Origin: a virus
Strand: one strand, 5' to 3'
IMG/VR virus record: IMGVR_UViG_3300048916_000021
Span: 1-29,451 of that record
Length of the DNA: 29,451 nt
This document shows, one piece after another, positions 1 to 17,302 of the stretch; the first letter of the stretch is position 1, and each line of letters opens with the position of its first letter. Both the position numbers and the translations under genes were made by a program. The notes below the pieces were generated by a model that saw nothing but the letters and a program-made list of their open reading frames with translations, ran no database searches and had not been told where the DNA came from.

Positions 1-354
1 CAACTTGTTCTAGCCACTCGGCGCTTGCGTCGCTGGATAGCGACGTGGTTACCCAACTCTAGACGAGTGGATTCTGTGTTTGTCAATGCGTAATTAAAAA
101 AGACAAAGCTAATGCTTTCAAGCTTTAGCTTTTAGCTAGCACAATGCTTTGTGCTTTCATTGAAGCAATTCTTTGCGACTGTATAAGACAATCAAGACGT
201 AGAGTCTTGCTTGTCACTGTTGATTGTCACGTGACGTAGTCACGGTAACGTGTATCTGCTCTAGCACCTGTGCTAGGGTAGTCAGCCGGACTAAACACGA
301 GCACGCTCACTGTCATCGGTAACACGTGCCAAAGCACGTGCTCACTGACGTGCT
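1..354. other. Non-coding leader, AT-rich part, no gene seen
   Basis: I see no credible gene here. Bases about 85-190 are much more AT-rich than the rest of the window and repeat short AAGCTTT/AGCTTTAGC-type words. Downstream, GACAATCA (187-194) and TGATTGTC (221-228) form an inverted repeat around a second nested one, CAAGAC (193-198) and GTCTTG (204-209). GTCACGTGAC (226-235) and AGCACGTGCT (333-342) are perfect palindromes. The mix of AT-rich DNA and palindromes would suit an origin or a regulatory region. That role is inference. Confidence 0.6.
160..187 (+). promoter_or_regulatory. Candidate sigma70-type promoter
   Basis: TTGAAG (160-165) is separated by 16 bp from TATAAG (182-187), a reasonable match to TTGACA and TATAAT. 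It would transcribe rightward through the nested inverted repeat at 187-228 and the palindrome array. The first convincing gene is almost 800 bp away, so the transcript would have a long leader or be non-coding. No experimental signal is visible in sequence alone. Confidence 0.35.
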
Positions 355-359
355 CTGAC

Positions 360-693
360 TTCCCATGCGACTCATGGGTGGTTACGCGTAACCCGATGGG
401 AGTCATGGGCACTCGCCCGGCGTAACCTCCGCTGGTTACGCCTGCTTCCCATGTCTCCCATGGGAACGCGGGAAACGTAACCAACGTAACCGTAACCCGG
501 TCAAACTTTTTTTCTGACCCTTACTCACGATCATCCATCCCGTCTTCATCACTTTGAACCGTCCACTTTCCAGAAGTAACCGGTTACGTTGGTTACACCA
601 TGTCTCCCATGGGAAGGCGGGGGGTTCAGGCGTAACCTGTAACCAGGTTACGTTTGGCCGTCCGCTCCCGCGTTCCCATGTCTCGCATGGAAA
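360..693. repeat. Array of hyphenated palindromes TTCCCATG-N5-CATGGGAA
   Basis: The best copy (446-466) is a perfect 21-bp hyphenated palindrome with 8-bp arms and spacer TCTCC. The copy at 595-615 shares its right 18 bases exactly (449-466 against 598-615) but has a damaged outer left arm. The copy at 673-693 has spacer TCTCG and one mismatch in the right arm. The copy at 360-380 has spacer CGACT and 6-bp perfect inner arms. 391-411 is a degenerate copy. The 5-nt spacer is constant throughout, which is typical of binding sites for a dimeric protein. A half-degraded copy recurs near 4550-4563, upstream of the DUF932 gene. Confidence 0.75.
380..652. repeat. Cluster of GGTTACG / CGTAACC elements
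   Basis: GGTTAC or its complement occurs about a dozen times. There is a 14-bp perfect palindrome at 380-393, an inverted pair at 421-427/434-440, three CGTAACC in tandem at 476-482, 485-491 and 491-497, the palindrome GTAACCGGTTAC at 576-587, GGTTAC at 591-596, and further copies at 631-637, 639-644 and 646-652. They interleave with the TTCCCATG palindromes. The GTAACCGGTTAC form recurs once more at 3067-3078, just upstream of the gene at 3108. This looks like a multi-site operator, but the cognate protein is unknown. Confidence 0.7.
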
Positions 694-976
694 GTACGTA
701 CTCGTGAACGACAAGCGTTATGGGCCGTCGTGGCCGACACTGCCTGATCTCATCGTTGCACATCGGCTACTCACGTTGCCTCGTCTACTCGATACCTCAT
801 CGAAGTCCGCTTCGGTCCACAAGCTGCGCCATGGTTATTGGCGGCGGTCGGCTGACCACCTGTCCACGGCTGTGGACGTGTGTTGGCTAACACACTATAA
901 ACAAGAGTTTGTTTTGGGAGTGAGTGTAAGTAAGAATTACATTCATGAAATACAAATTCAAACAAGGAGAAGAACA
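694..976. other. Non-coding, with DnaA-box-like sites and a possible promoter
   Basis: The frame of the gene at 977 stays open upstream to about 554, but it lacks a Shine-Dalgarno site there and runs through the palindrome array, so I treat 694-976 as non-coding. GTCCACA occurs at 815-821 on the plus strand and at 871-877 on the minus strand, and GTCCACG at 862-868. These match the core of the actinobacterial DnaA box TTGTCCACA. TATAAA at 896-901 is a possible -10 for the gene at 977, with no good -35. Confidence 0.5.
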
Positions 977-1333
977 ATGGTGACACTGGAAAGTGCAGTC
1001 ATCGTGATCATTGTGGTTGTGATGATCGCCGTCATTCTGACGTACCTGATCTGCAACTACTATTACGGGCACTCGACGCAGGCGCTCAACGATGAGCTCG
1101 AGAACTACAAGGCTCGAGAGGCCAACGGCGAAATGCCTGTGACGCTCATGACCGTGACGTTGCACGACGCGGTCAGCAACGAGTTCGTCGAGACCAAGCG
1201 GTTCACCGACGTGGTCGACGCGTTGAACTTCGTTCGCGTGCAGACGCCGAACTACACCGTGGTCATCAAGGCCTACAACAGCCGTGCGCGTCAGTCAACG
1301 CTGACGCTCGTCAACATCCAGCCGGAGGCATGA
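977..1333 (+). CDS. Small membrane-anchored protein, unknown function
   Basis: A 118-residue protein with one strong membrane helix at about residues 7-29 (rich in Val/Ile) followed by a soluble, charged C-terminal domain. The helix-first layout suggests an anchored protein. Its orientation is not clear. I chose ATG 977 because AAGGAG lies at 965-970, 6 nt upstream; longer in-frame starts (554 onwards) lack such a site and would cover the repeat array. It is the first gene of the rightward block and nearly touches the next gene. I do not recognise the family. Confidence 0.8.
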   Translation: MVTLESAVIVIIVVVMIAVILTYLICNYYYGHSTQALNDELENYKAREANGEMPVTLMTVTLHDAVSNEFVETKRFTDVVDALNFVRVQTPNYTVVIKAYNSRARQSTLTLVNIQPEA

Positions 1334-1335
1334 TC

Positions 1336-1617
1336 ATGACCAGCACAGACGTCATTTTCTTTCCGGCTGTGAACGTCAAGATCCTGCCGGTTCTGCCGGG
1401 CATGCAGCTGCCCATCAACCCGTACCAGGGCGAGACCGAGGTCGAGCAGTACGCGGTTGCGCTGTCTGACGGCTCCGGCGACGAGATCATCATCATCGGT
1501 GAGATCGTTGAGATCGACGCTTTCGTTCAGCGTCTGCGCACTCACGTGTCCGCTCTCAAGCGGCACTCGAAGGCGGTCAAGGCGCTCAACGAGAAGTACG
1601 GTCCGAAGGACAGCTGA
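1336..1617 (+). CDS. Hypothetical protein, 93 residues
   Basis: A soluble, probably mixed alpha/beta protein of unknown function. It has a hydrophobic N-terminal third (FFPAVNVKILPVLPG), an Ile-rich acidic stretch in the middle and a basic helical C-terminus. Two start codons compete: ATG 1330, overlapping the previous stop, and ATG 1336. GGAGG at 1324-1328 lies only 1 nt from the first but 7 nt from the second, so 1336 is preferred. Its last base is shared with the next start (TGATG), implying coupled translation. Confidence 0.75.
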   Translation: MTSTDVIFFPAVNVKILPVLPGMQLPINPYQGETEVEQYAVALSDGSGDEIIIIGEIVEIDAFVQRLRTHVSALKRHSKAVKALNEKYGPKDS

Positions 1618-1772
1618 TGTACGAGCTCTGGCTGTGGGTTGTGTTCTGCATGATCTGGGCTGTGTTGGCCGTTGGCTACGTGTACTGGGTCCTCATTGAC
1701 CTGGACTGGCGCATGCACCGGATCAACGAGCACCTGACCAACCTCAACTACTTGCCTGATCGGGAGCGATAA
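1617..1772 (+). CDS. Tiny single-pass membrane protein
   Basis: A 51-residue protein starting in the TGATG overlap with the gene before it and ending in a TAATG overlap with the next. Residues about 4-27 are almost entirely hydrophobic and rich in Trp, Val and Ile, a clear membrane helix. A polar, basic tail of about 24 residues follows. Overlaps at both ends and the strong helix make it credible despite its size. Function is unknown. Small membrane proteins in phage early regions can be host-takeover or exclusion factors, but nothing here shows that. Confidence 0.7.
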   Translation: MYELWLWVVFCMIWAVLAVGYVYWVLIDLDWRMHRINEHLTNLNYLPDRER

Positions 1773-1951
1773 TGGACGTGTTTGTTGTTGCACGCGCGTA
1801 CAACGGTCACCCGACCTTGCAGCACAAGATGTCCGATGATGGGACAACAACCCTGTGTGGGCGCGACGTCACCATGTGGAGTCGCGCCTACCAGGGTAAT
1901 CCCATCCCGCAGATCTACTGCAAGAAGTGCAAGCGACTTGAGGGACGATGA
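1772..1951 (+). CDS. Small putative zinc-binding protein
   Basis: A 59-residue protein beginning at the TAATG overlap with the upstream gene. Potential metal ligands are H13, H18, C29 and a C-terminal CxxC pair (C50, C53) followed by a basic tail. This resembles the small treble-clef or zinc-ribbon-like proteins that are common in actinobacteriophages. Zinc binding is inferred from ligand spacing, and no function can be assigned. It is one of several Cys/His modules in this window. Confidence 0.7.
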   Translation: MDVFVVARAYNGHPTLQHKMSDDGTTTLCGRDVTMWSRAYQGNPIPQIYCKKCKRLEGR

Positions 1952-2034
1952 CTACTGACGAGGATGACATGGTCGACCTCGCGTTGATCGCGTTAGGAGA
2001 ACTCAGTGAAGCTCCTGGTAGCTCACTACCGTGA
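1948..2034 (+). CDS. Possible 28-residue acidic leader peptide
   Basis: ATG 1948 overlaps the stop of the previous gene (ATGA), with GAGGGA just upstream. The reading frame is acidic at its N-terminus and ends inside the next gene, covering that gene's Shine-Dalgarno site and start at 2006. Such an arrangement could couple translation of the gene at 2006. The product is very short and could equally be chance. Confidence 0.3.
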   Translation: MTTDEDDMVDLALIALGELSEAPGSSLP

Positions 2035-2233
2035 TCCTGGATTCACGATGCAAGCAGTGCTGAACGACTTGTCGGCAGAACAGATGCTCACGTCGCTCGC
2101 CGAAGACGAGCGCGTGTACTGTGTCGTGGTGTACAGGATCGTAAACACCAACTTCCCGGAGATTATCGAACGGGAATCCGTCATCAACCAGTGGCAGCTC
2201 GAAGCAAAGCGACTGCCACGTCCGAACAACTGA
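2006..2233 (+). CDS. Hypothetical protein, 75 residues
   Basis: Starts with GTG at 2006, with AGGAG at 1995-1999 at a suitable spacing. The protein begins MKLLVAHYRD and contains a short hydrophobic strand-like stretch (VYCVVVYRIV) between acidic helices, then a basic C-terminus. This suggests a small folded alpha/beta domain. No family is recognised. Codon use matches the neighbouring genes. Confidence 0.7.
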   Translation: MKLLVAHYRDPGFTMQAVLNDLSAEQMLTSLAEDERVYCVVVYRIVNTNFPEIIERESVINQWQLEAKRLPRPNN

Positions 2234-2267
2234 ATACCGTCCCATCACAAGACAGGAAGAAGAAACA

Positions 2268-2942
2268 ATGTTTGGAACTGACAACGTCGACCTGATCCAG
2301 TTCGCGGCGATCAAGCTGACGATCAAGATCGAAGACCTGCTCGAAGCCGTTCGGCAGACGATCCTCGGTCGCGGGCTGGGCTACGTCTACGAGCCGCTTC
2401 ACGGCGTATGCGTGTACGTCGACGACGACAAGAAGCCGTCGTGCCTGTACGGCGTGGCGTTCAACAAGATCCTCGGCATCGCGCTCACGCAGAACTCGTC
2501 GATCGACGCCGCGCTCGACCGCTTCAACGTCACCGGTCTGAAGCCGGGCGTCACGGCGTGGCTCCGTCAGATGCAGGTCCTGCAGGACCAGCGTCTGGCG
2601 TATAGCCACGTCGCCGTGCTGTTCAACTACGGCCTCCGTCAGTTCGAGTACACGGACGTGGTCTCGGAGATCGACCTCGCCGGATACCCGATTAAGTACA
2701 TCGACAACATGCAGACGCTCGACGCGCTCAAGGAGCAGGTCGCCGAGAACGCAACGACGATCTATGGGCTGGAGCTCGAGGTTAAGGAGCTCAACGAGAA
2801 GGTCGTCGAGCTCAGCGAGTCGCAGAACCCCGAGGATAAGGTCATCAACGAGGCTTCGGACGAGTCCAAAGACCCGTGGTCGGCTTTCAACAGCGACGCG
2901 CCGTCGATCGAGAACAAGGACGAGCACGACCTCGACCTCTGA
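2268..2942 (+). CDS. Coiled-coil protein with acidic tail, unknown function
   Basis: A 224-residue protein. Residues 1-140 look like a folded domain of mixed helix and strand. Residues about 147-185 form a heptad-like coiled coil (ALKEQVAENA...ELEVKELNEKVVELSE), and the last 40 residues are strongly acidic, ending in EHDLDL. The coiled coil suggests oligomerisation, and the acidic tail could contact a basic partner. Codon use is more GC-ending than in nearby small genes, which can mark high expression. AGGAAG precedes ATG 2268. Function unknown. Confidence 0.8.
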   Translation: MFGTDNVDLIQFAAIKLTIKIEDLLEAVRQTILGRGLGYVYEPLHGVCVYVDDDKKPSCLYGVAFNKILGIALTQNSSIDAALDRFNVTGLKPGVTAWLRQMQVLQDQRLAYSHVAVLFNYGLRQFEYTDVVSEIDLAGYPIKYIDNMQTLDALKEQVAENATTIYGLELEVKELNEKVVELSESQNPEDKVINEASDESKDPWSAFNSDAPSIENKDEHDLDL

Positions 2943-2969
2943 GTTCAGCGCACCGGGCTGAGTCCGGGG

Positions 2970-2975
2970 TATAAT
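2970..2975 (+). promoter_or_regulatory. -10 element TATAAT, candidate promoter for the gene at 3108
   Basis: A perfect TATAAT in the context GGGGTATAATGG. No recognisable -35 lies 16-18 bp upstream and there is no TGn extension. The near-identical GCGGTATAATGG occurs at 16314-16325, also just upstream of a gene. Transcription would start around 2982 and read through the hairpin at 3011-3042 and two palindromes before reaching the gene. Confidence 0.55.
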
Positions 2976-3010
2976 GGTTGTACGCTACCCCACCGCCCTC
3001 GGTGCGTGGC

Positions 3011-3042
3011 CCTGGTTCCGGCTCTAGCGTCCCGGAACCAGG
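3011..3042 (+). promoter_or_regulatory. GC-rich hairpin in the leader of the gene at 3108
   Basis: A perfect 11-bp inverted repeat, CCTGGTTCCGG (3011-3021) and CCGGAACCAGG (3032-3042), with a 10-nt loop. There is no U-tract, so a simple intrinsic terminator is unlikely. It sits between the -10 element at 2970 and the gene, which suggests attenuation, RNA stabilisation or processing. Confidence 0.6.
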
Positions 3043-3049
3043 ACCGCAC

Positions 3050-3078
3050 ACTCTGTACGGTACAGAGTAACCGGTTAC
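3050..3078. promoter_or_regulatory. Overlapping palindromes, operator candidate
   Basis: ACTCTGTAC-G-GTACAGAGT (3050-3068) is a perfect 19-bp palindrome. It overlaps GTAACCGGTTAC (3067-3078), the same 12-bp palindrome found at 576-587 in the left control region. Lying between a -10 element and a start codon, they are good candidates for repressor sites. The shared sequence suggests one regulator acts at both places. Confidence 0.55.
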
Positions 3079-3107
3079 ATACCGCCCAACAGGAAGGAAT
3101 GCCAGAC

Positions 3108-3569
3108 ATGGCTCCGAAGCAGGACACCACCACCGAGACCGTCAGCCCCGCCGCCGCCGCGACGCGTGCCGAGATCGGCAACCGCCCGCGTCAGTCCGTC
3201 GTGCGCTACGTGCAGTACTACATCATCGTGCGCGACACCGCGCCGGACCAGCTCGACGAGCTGTTCGGCGACCAGGTCACGGCGCTGGAGGCCGTCGCCG
3301 ACAAGGTGACGAACCCCATCCAGGAGGCGATCGAGAAGGCGACCGCCACGCAGCACGACCTCGCGATCAAGGCGCTCGAGAACGACGACGCGCTCGTCGG
3401 CTACGCCAACTACGTGTTCGACCCCGAGGTGTTCGCGGAGAAGACGCGTGAGCGTCAGCCCCGCGTCAAGCGGACCGTCGCCGAGAAGGCGCAGGACCTG
3501 CTCGCCGAGGCGTCGGACGCCGACCTCGAGGCGCTGCGCGAGCTGCTCGCCGCGCGCGGCATCGCCTGA
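3108..3569 (+). CDS. Helical protein in its own transcription unit, unknown function
   Basis: A 153-residue, mostly helical protein. It has a Thr/Ala-rich flexible N-terminus (about 1-20), a central domain containing VVRYVQYYIIVRDTAPDQ, and a C-terminal helical hairpin ending in LEALRELLAARGIA. ATG 3108 is preferred because AAGGA ends 9 nt upstream; ATG 3099 has almost no spacing. Codons are markedly GC-ending, unlike the genes on either side. The gene has its own -10 element, leader hairpin, operator-like palindromes and a downstream hairpin. This suggests high or separately controlled expression, or recent arrival. I do not recognise the family. Confidence 0.8.
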   Translation: MAPKQDTTTETVSPAAAATRAEIGNRPRQSVVRYVQYYIIVRDTAPDQLDELFGDQVTALEAVADKVTNPIQEAIEKATATQHDLAIKALENDDALVGYANYVFDPEVFAEKTRERQPRVKRTVAEKAQDLLAEASDADLEALRELLAARGIA

Positions 3570-3589
3570 TCTCACCGCCTTCGTCGGCA

Positions 3590-3628
3590 ACGACGGCCCG
3601 CACCTGTGTACACGGTGCGGGCCGTCGT
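3590..3628 (+). terminator. Perfect 15-bp GC-rich hairpin after the gene at 3108
   Basis: Bases 3590-3604 pair perfectly with 3614-3628 (15 bp, 12 of them G-C) around a 9-nt loop. The position right after the stop at 3569 suits a terminator or an mRNA 3'-end stabiliser. It lacks the usual U-tract, so it may only be partial or act through Rho or processing. The next Shine-Dalgarno site is at 3640. Confidence 0.6.
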
Positions 3629-3649
3629 CACATGTTCATAAGGAGAATC

Positions 3650-3877
3650 ATGCTGTCAGAAAAGGACGTAGCACCATTCATCAGCTATAACATGCTGATG
3701 AACGGCGACGGTGAGCAGCAACACATCATCTCGGAATACAAGATGACAGAAGCTCGCAACGATCTGAAGGCGATCGAGCTCGAGATCAGTCGGCTGGAGC
3801 GTGTCAAGGCTGAGCTTGTTCGGTACAAGCGCAACATCAAGCGTACTCTGCTCGGTGCAGACTACCGTGCCGACTGA
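3650..3877 (+). CDS. Small coiled-coil protein
   Basis: A 75-residue protein. Its second half (about residues 33-66) is a long amphipathic helix, likely coiled coil, with alternating Leu/Ile and charged residues, then a basic tail. ATG 3650 is chosen over 3632 because AAGGAG lies at 3640-3645. It follows the 15-bp hairpin and overlaps the next gene by 11 bases. No family is recognised. Confidence 0.75.
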   Translation: MLSEKDVAPFISYNMLMNGDGEQQHIISEYKMTEARNDLKAIELEISRLERVKAELVRYKRNIKRTLLGADYRAD

Positions 3878-4166
3878 GTCTAAGGTGTCGAAGTACACCC
3901 GCGAGGTTGGCTACCAGCGCACGCTGGAAGAAGTGTTGCAGGCCAAGGGCGTCCCGTACACGTTGATCTACGCTCCAGGCGGACGATCAATCAAGGTCAT
4001 TGCAGCAAAGCTGGAATGTCTCATCACCATGCAGCCGTTGAGTGGTAACGAGGTTCGACTGCTCATCATCGGCGTGGGTCACAGCAAGCCCGTCGTAGAC
4101 ACTGTCTACGCGGACATCTTGCTCAAGCAGAAGCTTTACAAGTTCATCTCAGCAATCGAGGAGTAG
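3867..4166 (+). CDS. Hypothetical protein, 99 residues
   Basis: A soluble basic protein with alternating hydrophobic strands (TLIYAPGG, IKVIAAKL, VRLLIIGVGH) and a C-terminal helix. This is consistent with a small alpha/beta fold. The start is uncertain: GTG 3855, 3867 and 3885 are all in frame and none has a strong Shine-Dalgarno site. 3867 gives an 11-bp overlap with the previous gene and is the working choice. Function unknown. Confidence 0.65.
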   Translation: MPTESKVSKYTREVGYQRTLEEVLQAKGVPYTLIYAPGGRSIKVIAAKLECLITMQPLSGNEVRLLIIGVGHSKPVVDTVYADILLKQKLYKFISAIEE

Positions 4167-4168
4167 TC

Positions 4169-4393
4169 ATGTCGTACCAGCCGAAGCACGCTCAACAACC
4201 TGACCGTACTCTGCGAGCACGGTGGATGTTGGTGATCACGGCCTTCGTGATCATCATGATCGCGTTCATCTACGCGATCTCAGCCTGGCTCGTCCAGCTG
4301 AACCGTCCCGTGCAGCACACGCCGCAGATCGTGCACAGCGTGTGCCTCATGCCCGACTTCGCGAAGCGCTTCGACGAACGGTGTGACCGGTAG
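4169..4393 (+). CDS. Single-pass membrane protein, 74 residues
   Basis: It has a basic, Gln-rich N-terminus (about 19 residues), one strong membrane helix at about residues 20-43, and a polar C-terminus with two cysteines (in VCLMPD and ERCDR). The positive-inside rule predicts a cytoplasmic N-terminus and an outside C-terminus, where the cysteines could form a disulfide. GAGGAG at about 4158-4163 precedes ATG 4169. It is the last gene before a structured 200-bp gap. Function unknown. Confidence 0.75.
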   Translation: MSYQPKHAQQPDRTLRARWMLVITAFVIIMIAFIYAISAWLVQLNRPVQHTPQIVHSVCLMPDFAKRFDERCDR

Positions 4394-4413
4394 CAGACCG
4401 GCACAGCCCCACC

Positions 4414-4512
4414 GGAGCCACGCGAGGTTACAATCTCTGCAGCGAACGCCCGGTCCCAGCCCCAGCGGCTAGGGCCGGGCGTTCGACGCGAGAGCGGGGC
4501 GACTGTGGCTCC
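4414..4512 (+). ncRNA. Structured intergenic RNA element, unknown
   Basis: CGAACGCCCGG (4443-4453) pairs perfectly with CCGGGCGTTCG (4475-4485). The interior can extend the stem with CCC/GGG and AGCC/GGCT around small bulges. An outer stem, GGAGCCAC (4414-4421) with GTGGCTCC (4505-4512), encloses it. This nested pairing could be a small RNA, a leader of the DUF932 gene, or a processing site. TACAAT (4429-4434) upstream could be a -10 element. No U-tract follows the inner hairpin. Confidence 0.5.
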
Positions 4513-4517
4513 CTCAG

Positions 4518-4577
4518 TTTTCGAAAATTATTTTTCGGAATCCCAAAGCCCCATGCGAGTCATCGACATGGTAGAAT
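4518..4577. promoter_or_regulatory. AT-rich palindrome and possible promoter of the DUF932 gene
   Basis: TTTTCGAAAA (4518-4527) is a perfect palindrome in an AT-rich island. CCCATG-CGAGT-CAT (4550-4563) resembles the left half and spacer of the repeats at 360-693. GGTAGAAT (4570-4577) resembles the GGTATAAT element seen at 2968 and 16316. Together they suggest a regulated promoter just upstream of the start at 4603. The -35 is not recognisable. Confidence 0.4.
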
Positions 4578-4602
4578 AGAAGAGACAGGAAAGGACGTGA
4601 TC

Positions 4603-5604
4603 ATGAGTCACGGAATCAAGAGCACCGATAAGGTGCTTGCAGTTCGAGAACCCACGTGGCATGGTCTCGAGAACCTTATGATGGAACGGCCGACACGCAA
4701 GGAGGCTGAGAAGCTCGTTCACGACTTCCAGGTCCTGCGCGAGCCGATCTATCACAAGGTCTACGACATCGTGGACGGCGAGCCGACAGAGAGGTACGAG
4801 CTCGTTACTGACTGGGAGATGAATGTCCGGTCGGACACGGCGAAGAGGCTGAGCATCGTGCCGGTCACTCGCGTCGACGTCCAGCCCAGCGAAGTGTGGG
4901 ACCTCGCTGAGCTCATTCAGGGCGAAGACAAGAATATCAAGATCGAGACAGCAGGCTCGTACAACGACGGCGCCAACATCTGGGTGCTGATCTGGTTGGA
5001 CGAGCCTGTCGTCGTAAACGGAGACCCGAACGGTCTGACGTTGCCGTACTTCTGCTTGCAGAACGGCTACGTCCAGGGCGAGGGTCTGCGTGGACAGGCA
5101 ACCAACGTTCGCGTCGTGTGCAAGAACACGTCGCGCTTGAGTGACGTGGTCGCCGACTCGCAGGGTACGAACTTCTCATTCGCACACACCGGCAACCTGC
5201 GTGAGCGCGTCGAGGGAATCCGCGACGCGTTGCAGGGCTGGAGGCAGGGCATCCAGTCCTGGAAAGCGGGCAAGGAGTTCATGGCAACGCAGCGTGTGAC
5301 AACGGACCAGATCAACTGGTTCGTGGAGCAGTTCATTCCTGCTCCGCATCACACGCAGATCAGCGATCGCGTTCAGCAGAACGTGGAGCTCGATCGCACG
5401 CAGCTGATCCTCGAGCTGTTCAACAGTGAGATGAACGCTGGCATCACGCACACTGCGCTCGGTCTGTTCGAGGCGGCGTCGTCGTGGAACGAGCACGTGC
5501 GTCGTGCGCAGACGCCGTTCACTCGGTTCAAGCGAGCCATGCTTGAGCCGAGCGACATCCTTGAGCAGGCGCGGGAGCTCGCTATGGCGGCAATCAATGC
5601 CTGA
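4603..5604 (+). CDS. DUF932 phage/plasmid-like protein
   Basis: A 333-residue protein. The opening MSHGI, the WHGL motif near residues 22-25 and the long helical C-terminus match the DUF932 (TIGR03299, phage/plasmid-like) family, which is widespread on mobile elements. Its biochemical role is not established. ATG 4603 is preferred over GTG 4597 because AGGAAAGGA ends 8 nt upstream. It opens the replication-gene block and overlaps the next start by 8 bases, suggesting co-expression with DNA metabolism. Family assignment is fairly confident. Confidence 0.8.
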   Translation: MSHGIKSTDKVLAVREPTWHGLENLMMERPTRKEAEKLVHDFQVLREPIYHKVYDIVDGEPTERYELVTDWEMNVRSDTAKRLSIVPVTRVDVQPSEVWDLAELIQGEDKNIKIETAGSYNDGANIWVLIWLDEPVVVNGDPNGLTLPYFCLQNGYVQGEGLRGQATNVRVVCKNTSRLSDVVADSQGTNFSFAHTGNLRERVEGIRDALQGWRQGIQSWKAGKEFMATQRVTTDQINWFVEQFIPAPHHTQISDRVQQNVELDRTQLILELFNSEMNAGITHTALGLFEAASSWNEHVRRAQTPFTRFKRAMLEPSDILEQARELAMAAINA

Positions 5605-6072: not shown

Positions 6073-6807
6073 ATGGCAGACAAGACTGACATCCAGTACC
6101 CGAAGAATCTGAACCTCGAGGGCGTGCTGTCGTTCCCGCTCACGAGCTCGCAGGACCTGCTCGACGTGGTAGACTGGCGCGTCAAGAAGGGACACGCCAA
6201 GCCGCAGTACGAAGACAAGATCGGCGGCACGCTGTTCCTCGACCAGGAGAACTACGACAAGGCGGTGCGCTACCTCACGGAGATTGCACTGCCGTTCTCC
6301 GACAAGCTGTGGGCGCAGACCAACGGCAAGAAGGGTATCGACCCTGAGCTGACGGCTGACCTGCTCAAGCAGGCGCAGGAGCGCGTGTGGATCGATCCCA
6401 CCGACAAGAAGAAGCGGCCCAACATGCCGCTCCGGAACCTGTCGGAGTCGGACATCGAGAACATGGGCGACTTCCAGGGCGTCGCGAAGATCAAGTTCGC
6501 GGGACCGTACCAGGCGGACATGGGCAAGAAGGCCCTGATCCACGAGGACGGTCAGGCGATGGTCGTGAAGCTGGAGGACTTGGAGGGTGACCTGGCTCTG
6601 CCGGACCTCGCCAAGGACTACGACAAGCTGTGGTGGGGTGCTGGCTGGCACTTCCGCACCGGTCTGCGCTTCAACGTGTTCGACAAGGCGTCGGTCGGCG
6701 TGACGGCGTACAACCAGACGTTGTACCTGCTGCCCGAGATGGGCATGCCGATCAGCGGCAACAACGGCGACGCCACGATCCTCGACGACGGCGACGACTG
6801 GGAGTGA
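6073..6807 (+). CDS. Single-stranded DNA-binding protein, T7 gp2.5/DUF2815-like
   Basis: A 244-residue protein, close to the 232 residues of T7 gp2.5. It is strand-rich with many aromatic residues, consistent with an OB fold, and ends in an acidic tail with a terminal aromatic (ILDDGDDWE). Such tails in phage SSBs contact the polymerase and helicase and are diagnostic in this context. It would coat ssDNA during replication and recombination. Codons are more GC-ending than in its neighbours, fitting an abundant protein. A UUCG-capped hairpin follows. The call is inferred from tail, size and position; an uncharacterised OB protein is the alternative. Confidence 0.65.
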   Translation: MADKTDIQYPKNLNLEGVLSFPLTSSQDLLDVVDWRVKKGHAKPQYEDKIGGTLFLDQENYDKAVRYLTEIALPFSDKLWAQTNGKKGIDPELTADLLKQAQERVWIDPTDKKKRPNMPLRNLSESDIENMGDFQGVAKIKFAGPYQADMGKKALIHEDGQAMVVKLEDLEGDLALPDLAKDYDKLWWGAGWHFRTGLRFNVFDKASVGVTAYNQTLYLLPEMGMPISGNNGDATILDDGDDWE

Positions 6808-14058: not shown

Positions 14059-15456
14059 ATGCCCCGACTCCACACGAAAGCGGAACTTGCAACTGTAGCA
14101 CAGCTTTTTGCGCTCCAGTTCGACCTGATTGACTATCAGGGACAGCTGTTCATGCCGGTGGATTTCGAGACCTACGCACACCAGCCTACCGATCCTGCTC
14201 GCACCGTCTGGATTCCGCTCAGTGAGCGGAAGCTCAGGGCCGTCGCGAATGCCTTGAACATCTTGTTCCAGTCCCCACAGGAAGAACGATCGTTCAAGCA
14301 CATGACCATGCAGTTCGCGAGACACATCGAGCAGACATCGTTCGGTGTGCTGATGCGGACCGGAGACACAATCTCTGAGCTCACGACTGAGGGTCAGCTC
14401 GTGCCGGTAACGGCGGCGAGATTCATTCCCAACTACATCAGCATTCCGTACGTCAAGAACAATCCGAAGACGCCGGAGATGTGGGGTTACCTGACAGAGT
14501 GGCTCGGCTCAGAGAGCCAGGCACACTCACTGCTCTATCACCTGGCGACGATCTTCCAACCGTCGTGGAGCGCTGTCAAGTACGTCCTGCTGCTGGGCAG
14601 TGGGCGCAACGGCAAGAGCACGCTGTTGCTCATGCTGCAGGACATTCTAGGCCGAGCGAACTATAGCAAGGTCAAGCGACAGATGATGTCAGAGCAGAGT
14701 CCACTCATGCTCGATCTCAACAACAAGTTGGCGAACATCGTCCTCGATGGTATGAAAGAGTTCCTGAAGGACTCGTCTACCGAGAAGACGCTGGTCGCTG
14801 GCGAGGACCTCGACATCGAGATCAAGTACGAGAACGCACCGTACACGGTGCAGACGAACGCTCTGTTCATCGAAGGCTTGCAGACGGAACCGCGTGTGAG
14901 CGACAAGTCGGTTGCGTTGCAGAAGCGACTGGTGCGCTTCTACTTTCCGAACGAGTATCCGCTCAACAAGAAGTTCGAGGACTACATGCGTCAGCCTGAG
15001 ATGCTGGCGGCACTCGTGGAGTTGATGCTCCAGCACTGGGTGACGAAGGACACGCTCGAAGAGAAGCTGGCGATCACGGCTGAGTCGATGGACCTGCAGA
15101 TGAATGCGGTCTGGACGAACAGTCCGATCATCCGCTTCTTGGAATGGATGTCTGGCAGGGAGATGAACTTCCTGGAAGACATCGTAAACAAGAAGATGAT
15201 GGTCGACGTGTTCTTGCTCTCGTACCGTAGCTGGTGTGACAACAACGGGTACAAGAACATCGAGGACGATTACCTGTTGCAGGTGATCGGTGAGCACTTC
15301 ACGATCGGTAAGAAAACTTTTCGCATCAACGGAAAGCCTACGAGCCGGAAGTATCTTGAGAAGGTCGGTTCCGACACTCTCAATTCGATTCAAGCACTGC
15401 TTCGAGGCGAGAGCATCGTGGCTGAGACAGAGGATGAAACCATCCTCGCTGAGTAG
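14059..15456 (+). CDS. SF3 replicative helicase (D5/P4-type)
   Basis: A 465-residue protein with the AAA+ core of phage and plasmid superfamily 3 helicases. Walker A GSGRNGKS lies at 180-187, a Walker B-like region around D230/E234, the family block AGEDLDIEIKYENAPYT (247-263), the sensor TNALFIEG (266-273) and an arginine-finger-like KRLVRFYFP (289-297). It should form a ring that unwinds the fork. The N-terminal 140 residues do not look like a primase; that activity is in the next gene. Usually Prim-Pol and SF3 domains share one polypeptide in the order primase-helicase; here they are separate and reversed. Confidence 0.9.
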   Translation: MPRLHTKAELATVAQLFALQFDLIDYQGQLFMPVDFETYAHQPTDPARTVWIPLSERKLRAVANALNILFQSPQEERSFKHMTMQFARHIEQTSFGVLMRTGDTISELTTEGQLVPVTAARFIPNYISIPYVKNNPKTPEMWGYLTEWLGSESQAHSLLYHLATIFQPSWSAVKYVLLLGSGRNGKSTLLLMLQDILGRANYSKVKRQMMSEQSPLMLDLNNKLANIVLDGMKEFLKDSSTEKTLVAGEDLDIEIKYENAPYTVQTNALFIEGLQTEPRVSDKSVALQKRLVRFYFPNEYPLNKKFEDYMRQPEMLAALVELMLQHWVTKDTLEEKLAITAESMDLQMNAVWTNSPIIRFLEWMSGREMNFLEDIVNKKMMVDVFLLSYRSWCDNNGYKNIEDDYLLQVIGEHFTIGKKTFRINGKPTSRKYLEKVGSDTLNSIQALLRGESIVAETEDETILAE

Positions 15457-15468
15457 ACAGGACTCAAC

Positions 15469-16278
15469 GTGGCACAATGGTATGAAGACATCGAGCAGTA
15501 CACTGAGAGCATCGCACTACCCGTACAGCTTCCGTACGACAAGCTGTCGCTTGTCAGGGTCTACGCGTCGGGTAAGACCCAGCCAGGCTGGGGCGCGAAG
15601 GAGTTCGTAGACAACTACGCGAACAACGCGTTCGATCCGGGGCGAGCACTCTGGTTCTTCGAGAAGTACAAGTCAGCGTTCGGCATCGTGATGAGGTCGG
15701 TGCCGTGCATTTGCGTCGACATCGACGGCAAGAACGGCGGCATCGAGATCGCTCGGAACATGCAGCTGCCCCGCACACTGGCAGAGTTCAGCCGGAGCGA
15801 GAACGGATTCCACCTGTTCTACGAGGTCCCTGGGACTGAGTGGAATCCACTCAGAGGCTACGATGAGTTCCCAGACATCATCGGGCTCGTGCCGGGCGTC
15901 GACATCAAGGGTACAGGTATCGTGTTCCACTACCCGAACCAGCGCTGGAACAATCGTGAACTCGCACTGGCACCGGCGAAGCTCATGGAGCTGATCGGTC
16001 GAGCGCGAGACACGAAGCGTCTGACGCGGCAGATGGCGTTCGGCGTGTCGACGATGGATCCAGACGAGCTCGTGCTTGTACACGACTCGCTCCTGAGCGA
16101 TCTGGCGGGAACGTTCGAGGTCGGCAAGAGGAACTCGAAGTTGTTCGCGATCGGTGCACAGCTCTACGGCGCACAGTATCCGCACTGGGACACGGCGATC
16201 TACGACCGTGGCGTTCAGATCGGGCTGGAGCTCGAAGAGATCGCTGACATCATCAGGAACATCGAGTCATACTCGTGA
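15469..16278 (+). CDS. Prim-Pol type DNA primase/polymerase domain protein
   Basis: A 269-residue archaeo-eukaryotic-type primase. The metal site appears in CICVDIDGKNGG (D84, D86), the nucleotide-binding S-x2-G-x-H in SENGFH (110-115), and a third acid in VDIKGTG (D145). It would make primers for the family-A polymerase, working with the SF3 helicase encoded just upstream. GTG 15469 has AGGA 6 nt upstream. A short helical C-terminal region (about 180-269) may be the helicase contact. It is the last gene before the strong terminator. Confidence 0.88.
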   Translation: MAQWYEDIEQYTESIALPVQLPYDKLSLVRVYASGKTQPGWGAKEFVDNYANNAFDPGRALWFFEKYKSAFGIVMRSVPCICVDIDGKNGGIEIARNMQLPRTLAEFSRSENGFHLFYEVPGTEWNPLRGYDEFPDIIGLVPGVDIKGTGIVFHYPNQRWNNRELALAPAKLMELIGRARDTKRLTRQMAFGVSTMDPDELVLVHDSLLSDLAGTFEVGKRNSKLFAIGAQLYGAQYPHWDTAIYDRGVQIGLELEEIADIIRNIESYS

Positions 16279-16355: not shown

Positions 16356-16907
16356 ATGCCTGAGAGGTCCATCAGTGATCTGGAACGCGAGCTGCAAGCA
16401 CGCTTCAATCCAGAGAAGTCTCGCAAGTTCAGCAGCACGGTCGATGAAGGCGTTCAGCCGTCGGCCTACGTGCAGGACTTGGCTCTGCCTGACGAGAGCC
16501 GTGGCAGACTGCCGCTGACGAAAGATACTTACGTCATCAACGAGAATCCCGCTCGTGTCGAGTGGGAGCGTGAAGTGCGCAAGTTCTTGAACCAGCTGAA
16601 TAGTGACTTCGGTCACAGGATCACGGCACCCATGGTCTACGAGTGGGTGACGGGGATTGATCTTCGAGACCTGATCAACCCTCAGGCGAATCCGCAGGGC
16701 GGTGGTCAGTGGGGTATTGCGAACGTGCATCTCCGCCACATCAACTGGGTGCTGAAGGAGTACTTCGGCACGGCCTACAAGACCAAGATCGCGGGCCGAC
16801 CTGTCGGCAAAGCGTACACGGTCCGTCCGTACTTCAGGGTCAAGGATAAGAAGCCTGCGAACCTGACGTTGTGGCCGGAGTGGGAACAGAAGACGTTGAA
16901 CCCATGA
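16356..16907 (+). CDS. Hypothetical basic protein with own promoter
   Basis: A 183-residue protein. It has a charged N-terminal region (1-65) followed by a domain with helices (EWEREVRKFLNQLNSDFG, APMVYEWVTG) and a basic, aromatic C-terminus (KAYTVRPYFRVKDKK, WPEWEQ). The basic C-terminus could contact nucleic acid. GGAAGGA precedes ATG 16356. It lies beyond the early terminator and just before the convergent late operon, a position that would suit a late-switch or packaging factor. That role is speculation. It overlaps the next gene by 4 bases (ATGA). Confidence 0.8.
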   Translation: MPERSISDLERELQARFNPEKSRKFSSTVDEGVQPSAYVQDLALPDESRGRLPLTKDTYVINENPARVEWEREVRKFLNQLNSDFGHRITAPMVYEWVTGIDLRDLINPQANPQGGGQWGIANVHLRHINWVLKEYFGTAYKTKIAGRPVGKAYTVRPYFRVKDKKPANLTLWPEWEQKTLNP

Positions 16908-17302
16908 CTGGGAAGAAGCAGGAGCTAAGCCCTGAGGCGTACCAAAGATGGTACGAGCAATGGAAGAGTACTGAATGGCAAAGGCGATGGAAGAAGAAGC
17001 TAGAGGCGAATCCAATTAACGCGCTTCCAATGGAAGCGCGTGGCCCGATGCCGGAGACCTATAGCCTTGAGGAAGCATACTGGCACCCGCTAGCGTGTGA
17101 GTGCGGGAGCTGCTTGGGCCGTGCTGCCGAGATCGCGAAGCAGATGCGCATGGTAACACGGCCCATCCCACCTGCCGTCAAATCGGCATGGAGTCATCTT
17201 CCTGCAACTTCTCATCTGGTACTGAACCGCCTTCGAGTCGTCGAAGTAGCTGTTCTATCGATGGAAGGTTTGCGGACCAAGCAGCAAGCAGCACAAGACT
17301 AG
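16904..17302 (+). CDS. Hypothetical protein converging on the late operon
   Basis: A 132-residue protein starting in the ATGA overlap with the gene before it. The N-terminus is very basic and Trp-rich (YQRWYEQWKSTEWQRRWKKKL). The middle has HPLACECGSCLG, a CxCxxC cluster that may bind metal. The C-terminal third is helical. Its last 125 bases run antisense to the gene at 17178-17465, with no terminator between them. Function is unknown; the Lys/Trp-rich start suggests nucleic-acid or membrane contact. Confidence 0.65.
   Translation: MTGKKQELSPEAYQRWYEQWKSTEWQRRWKKKLEANPINALPMEARGPMPETYSLEEAYWHPLACECGSCLGRAAEIAKQMRMVTRPIPPAVKSAWSHLPATSHLVLNRLRVVEVAVLSMEGLRTKQQAAQD

Follow-up and report, generated by a model that had tools for sequence, protein, structure and literature searches.

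The leader at positions 360-693 raises a simple question: why should a short palindrome recur several times in a region that appears to lack genes? The window (that is, the whole stretch of viral DNA that was analysed, 29,451 bases in length) belongs to the Microbacterium podophage cluster EK (Eekayvirinae) and is inverted in orientation with respect to the GenBank records. A preliminary description, made from the sequence alone, had proposed a five-copy palindrome, here called P. This is borne out: four exact CCATG-N5-CATGG cores (starting at 363, 449, 598, and 676) and one copy with a single mismatch all lie within 363-690. No further exact core is present anywhere in the window, and none appears in 2,000 dinucleotide shuffles of the leader. 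When the longer pattern TTCCCATG-N5-CATGGGAA is searched for with up to three mismatches, the window contains four matches (360-380, 446-466, 595-615, and 673-693) versus 0.06 expected, a number reached by none of 100 shuffles; the copy at 446-466 is perfect over 21 bp, as claimed. The five sites are as follows.

360-380, no strand assigned: P site 1, TTCCCATGCGACTCATGGGTG, core at 363-377
391-411, no strand assigned: P site 2, core at 394-408 (CGATG-GGAGT-CATGG, one mismatch)
446-466, no strand assigned: P site 3, perfect TTCCCATGTCTCCCATGGGAA, inner left bracket
595-615, no strand assigned: P site 4, core at 598-612, inner right bracket
673-693, no strand assigned: P site 5, TTCCCATGTCTCGCATGGAAA

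The leader was also correctly described as gene-free, in that it contains no convincing gene and relatives annotate only a few short, doubtful open reading frames (ORFs) there. Two such ORFs in or overlapping the region, at 16514-16627 in EugeneKrabs (L234) and 6435-6527 in LilyLou (L161), are probably spurious. An Rfam search of window positions 1-5000 returned two weak microRNA matches below gathering scores, neither of them in the leader.

In the phage records searched, P occurs in a single group of phages, which infect soil bacteria. A 33-nt probe containing the motif matches 49 of 50,697 phage records, all of them Microbacterium EK phages (Eekayvirinae) and Burro; among the matches listed, all lie outside annotated genes except that of Zhengyi, which overlaps one hypothetical ORF. 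Rather than being missing from relatives, P is found at the same place in EK phages and Burro, and rather than being equally frequent inside genes, exact copies outside the leader are rare: in whole genomes, 4/4 copies in Akoni, 5/5 in EugeneKrabs, and 5/6 in Unphazed fall within it, and no stray copy has a GAGA centre. Exact-pattern scans of viral contigs gave mostly chance matches.

The anatomy of P was examined in 95 sites from 23 genomes (68 distinct). Arm conservation is not independent evidence in this set, as the arms served for site selection; the spacer was not used, apart from the choice of orientation. The spacer has the consensus SGAGA in either orientation and is CGAGA in 46 of the 68 distinct sites, with the remainder mostly differing by one or two bases. 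The varied spacer of the preliminary description is not supported by these counts: the window spacers that it quoted are literally right, but when read in one orientation (CGACT, GGAGT, GGAGA, GGAGA, and CGAGA) all are variants of one sequence. Because the spacer is conserved, the centre is probably also read by protein, and the reader of P is probably a dimer that contacts the centre as well as the arms. Across copies the centre occurs in both orientations (77 versus 18), none of seven core variants shows a compensated arm change, and covariation in the flanks is weak or absent; because of the two orientations and the uncompensated arms, P is best described, from its sequence, as a double-stranded protein-binding site with a conserved centre and not as a hairpin. 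The earlier suggestion of selection on a dimer-type site in the gene-free leader is supported to this extent. P and its centre are kept across phages whose helicases share only approximately 42% identity.

Interleaved with P is a second repeat, R, that had escaped the preliminary description. In the window, R consists of GTAACC/GGTTAC arrays, with 13 copies in 290 bp of the leader where the rest of the window would predict 0.10, and the arrays include a perfect 16-nt inverted repeat (477-492/581-596).

380-439, no strand assigned: outer left R (GGTTAC 380, GTAACC 388, GTAACC 422, GGTTAC 434)
477-497, plus strand: inner left R iterons (GTAACC 477 and 486, 9 bp apart, and 492)
498-575, no strand assigned: AT-richer gap, 55% AT versus 41-42% in the flanks, a candidate unwinding element
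576-596, minus strand: inner right R iterons (GGTTAC 582 and 591, 9 bp apart, and GTAACC 576)
632-651, no strand assigned: outer right R (GTAACC 632, GTAACC 639, GGTTAC 646)

This arrangement is shared. R forms inverted arrays that face each other over a gap of 71-90 bp, with inner copies 8-9 bp apart; in the leaders of 11 relatives the gap measures 71-81 bp and is 56-67% AT versus 38-42% in the flanks, and R is enriched approximately 50-130 fold in the leader versus the rest of each genome. The layout P-Rn-P-RR-gap-RR-P-Rn recurs in the leaders examined, with P sites marking both the inner and the outer edges of the R arrays. R differs in sequence between lineages, whereas P barely changes and the layout is constant: Akonivirus-type phages, like the window, use GTAACC as the R word, Tinytimothyvirus-type phages use GAACCG, and Burro uses GGTAACG, and two environmental relatives have ATAAAACGCG and GCGTGTATC, respectively. 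Two genomes depart from the full pattern: G007 has P sites without a clear R array, and Burro has only one intact P, the others being mostly degenerate. These features of P and R, their conservation, architecture, and anatomy, were observed directly in the genomes.

Four conserved proteins encoded in the window bear on how these sites might be used.

6073-6807, plus strand: gp15 homologue, kept in all genomes
14059-15456, plus strand: gp3 homologue, a D5/SF3 helicase like SaPI5 Rep with a C-terminal winged helix, candidate R-binding initiator
15469-16278, plus strand: gp2 homologue, PrimPol (PF09250)
16356-16907, plus strand: gp1 homologue, an uncharacterised winged-helix protein, candidate P-binding protein

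The gp3 protein of EK phages is annotated as "DNA primase", a label that we correct here: it is a D5/SF3 helicase like SaPI5 Rep. Both its presence and its predicted fold are direct observations. A gp3 profile finds the SaPI5 primase-helicase 7ola (hmmsearch E 2.5e-8), and the gp3 model (mean pLDDT 75.8, C-terminal winged helix at approximately 382-436) matches the same structure with a Foldseek E of 6e-14 and a VIA Z of 24.2 (rmsd 5.6, 374 residues). SaPI Rep helicases read short origin iterons through their C-terminal domain, and the related Cch2 likewise uses its C-terminal domain to bind short repeats at a putative origin (PMC7581432); by analogy, R is probably the iteron set of gp3. A comparison of R type with gp3 residues does not separate this pairing from ancestry, as all core genes follow the same split. 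EugeneKrabs was tried as a recombinant that might separate the two, and its core genes group with those of Unphazed and Pabst. Although EugeneKrabs (L234) is labelled Akonivirus, most of its core replication genes are nearer to those of Tinytimothyvirus phages. The acidic tail of gp15 suggests a single-strand DNA-binding protein.

P is probably read by gp1. Nine proteins occur in every genome scanned, Burro included, and gp1 is the only one of these that is both uncharacterised and predicted to contain a winged helix. The gp1 model (mean pLDDT 70.7) has no Foldseek match below E 0.001; its best VIA match, tied, is the SaPI5 PriRep1-dsDNA structure (Z 5.8, rmsd 3.1, 81 residues), a weak similarity of fold only. 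The protein carries a near-invariant helix, GSANxHLRHIN, taken to be its recognition helix. In G012, which keeps the R arrays (GTAACCGG) and the gap but has TACCAGGGG words in place of P, this helix reads GKLNVHLRAIN, and in Burro, with its one intact P, it reads GAANGDLRKIN. Changes in the helix thus appear to track the loss or degeneration of P in these two genomes. The correlation is suggestive rather than proof, because G004 has altered P centres (CACTA, TACTG, and CACCG) and yet its helix is unchanged except for one residue. Two other candidates were rejected as P binders: the DUF932 protein is absent from Tinytimothyvirus phages, Fede, and Burro, all of which keep P, and gp30 exists as two unrelated types, with most relatives having no recognisable homologue.

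We infer from this combination that window positions 360-693 are probably the core of an iteron-type phage replication origin, in which R serves gp3 and P serves gp1; the function, both protein-site pairings, and the order of events that follows are all part of this inference. The GTAACC repeats would be iterons that gp3, a hexameric helicase, recognises through its C-terminal winged helix, and two gp3 hexamers would sit on the two inner R pairs, which face inward. These hexamers would melt the AT-richer gap between the pairs, after which the gp2 PrimPol would prime synthesis. P would be bound as duplex by a dimer, most likely of gp1, which, placed on the inner and outer sides of each R array, could organise the complex or gate loading. 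Several observations count against this model: the leader is approximately 13 kb from gp3, the cumulative GC skew of Akoni has a local maximum near the leader, not a minimum (coding bias may explain the latter), the fold match of gp1 is weak, and G007 and Burro depart from the full set of P and R sites.

Next in likelihood comes an early regulatory region, in which a phage regulator would switch the early operon (start 977) from P sites acting as its operators, R sites would belong to a second regulator, and replication would start elsewhere. The leader lies directly upstream of that operon, and the predicted winged helix of gp1 is regulator-like. In addition, the broken copy of P claimed near 4550 is a real match, with one mismatch, and overlaps the promoter region upstream of the DUF932 gene.

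4548-4575, plus strand: P-like site, CCATGCGAGTCATCG, just upstream of a TAGAAT -10 hexamer, before the DUF932 gene

A P-like site occurs at the same promoter in Akoni, Phedro, Mazun, TrippleS, Atraxi, and Astartes, which suggests that the P-binding protein also regulates transcription. We nevertheless regard purely transcriptional control as unlikely: both motifs keep to a single region instead of being spread over promoters, and the inward-facing iteron pairs, the AT-richer gap, and the SaPI5-Rep-like helicase would be left without a role. Since the P-like site recurs at the DUF932 promoter, the leader could be an origin and an early regulatory region at once. In several Akonivirus phages the P-like site at this position precedes a TATAAT, and in other relatives the position is occupied by a different palindrome.

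P could also act as a hairpin in single-stranded DNA or RNA, either as N4-type hairpin promoters for a giant virion protein or as terminator-like RNA stems. Perfect P arms are able to pair into a stem (about -10 kcal/mol as RNA), and EK phages encode a giant protein exceeding 4,400 residues, the gene for which is not on the window; the Burro giant protein is virion associated, and the same study reports that the giant proteins show no similarity to N4 vRNAP (PMC7302621). We rejected this reading, now very improbable, on the uncompensated arm changes, and the weak or absent flank covariation and the asymmetric centre found in both orientations also speak against it. A packaging (pac) or partition site is similarly improbable. 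Since EK genomes are circularly permuted (PMC8281081), they should have a start site for packaging; however, the terminase gene is far off on the Akoni record (51.6-53.1 kb versus 16.5 kb), no ParB-type partition protein turned up in those window proteins that the Pfam and PHROGs scans covered, and EK phages are described as lytic. Least credible is recruitment by the phage of a host protein (a nucleoid factor or regulator) to P: the conservation of P and its centre among phages with such divergent helicases would fit, but direct counts in host genomes led us to reject P as a host regulon site, with CCATGNGAGACATGG matching three times in 198 Microbacterium genomes versus approximately five expected (about chance) and looser P arms near control frequency in three Microbacteriaceae genomes.

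Iteron origins with SF3 initiators are already known, and the proposed EK origin resembles those of the SaPI5 family (Rep/PriRep1) in its clusters of short iterons and in the pairing of a D5/SF3 helicase initiator with an AEP-type primase; the match to the SaPI5 primase-helicase spans nearly the whole length of gp3. It differs in that primase and helicase are separate proteins, that the iterons are bracketed by a second, palindromic set of sites (P), and that EK phages are lytic phages and not satellites. Further, the SaPI origin is directly downstream of rep, whereas the EK leader (360-693) is remote from the helicase gene (14059-15456), and for this reason we do not class it as a SaPI origin proper. 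At the putative origin of SCCmec cch2, the C-terminal domain of the D5-type Cch2 recognises short direct repeats and inverted repeats are also present (PMC7581432), but those inverted repeats are dispensable for Cch2 binding, there are only three iterons, and the polymerase partner is different. Microbacterium phages of clusters EC, EF, EG, and EI also have short conserved intergenic repeats, including an 18-bp inverted repeat in EG; these stand singly before many genes, in contrast to the EK motifs, which are concentrated in one region, and no such intergenic motif is reported for cluster EK in the accessible part of that work (PMC7302621).

The literature searched yielded no description of an EK origin, nor, to the extent that it shows, of a palindrome that brackets iterons and has a candidate protein family of its own. 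To our knowledge, few origins of actinobacterial phages have been located. The present analysis places a predicted origin within approximately 350 bp across a whole subfamily, represented by 49 database records with Burro counted in, and names for EK phages both a likely initiator (gp3) and an unstudied partner protein (gp1). As iteron sequence varies while layout is constant, these phages form a natural series in which initiator-origin coevolution is directly testable.

Beside the leader is a further conserved element, which accompanied each origin region that was checked for its presence.

10-75, plus strand: conserved structured element, CTAGCCACTCGGCGCTTGC-hairpin-GTGGTTACCC

The element has an invariant GCGCTTGC beside the hairpin, all six pairs of which show double compensatory changes; over the whole element there are 27 cells with a double change versus 6.4 in shuffles. 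Rfam gave no match to it. It could function as an RNA or belong to the origin. A fuller reading of the locus, which we put forward only tentatively, is a two-code origin: fast-evolving iterons read by a SaPI5-Rep-like helicase would be combined with a slow-evolving bracketing palindrome read by gp1 as a new, standalone winged-helix family, with the structured element as a third component. All 19 phages and contigs that were examined for the element carry it in their leaders, as do two further relatives, one of which lacks P. Other copies lie at 17034-17105 (minus strand) in Akoni (L006), at 1502 (plus strand) in L411, and at 17140 (plus strand) in L414.
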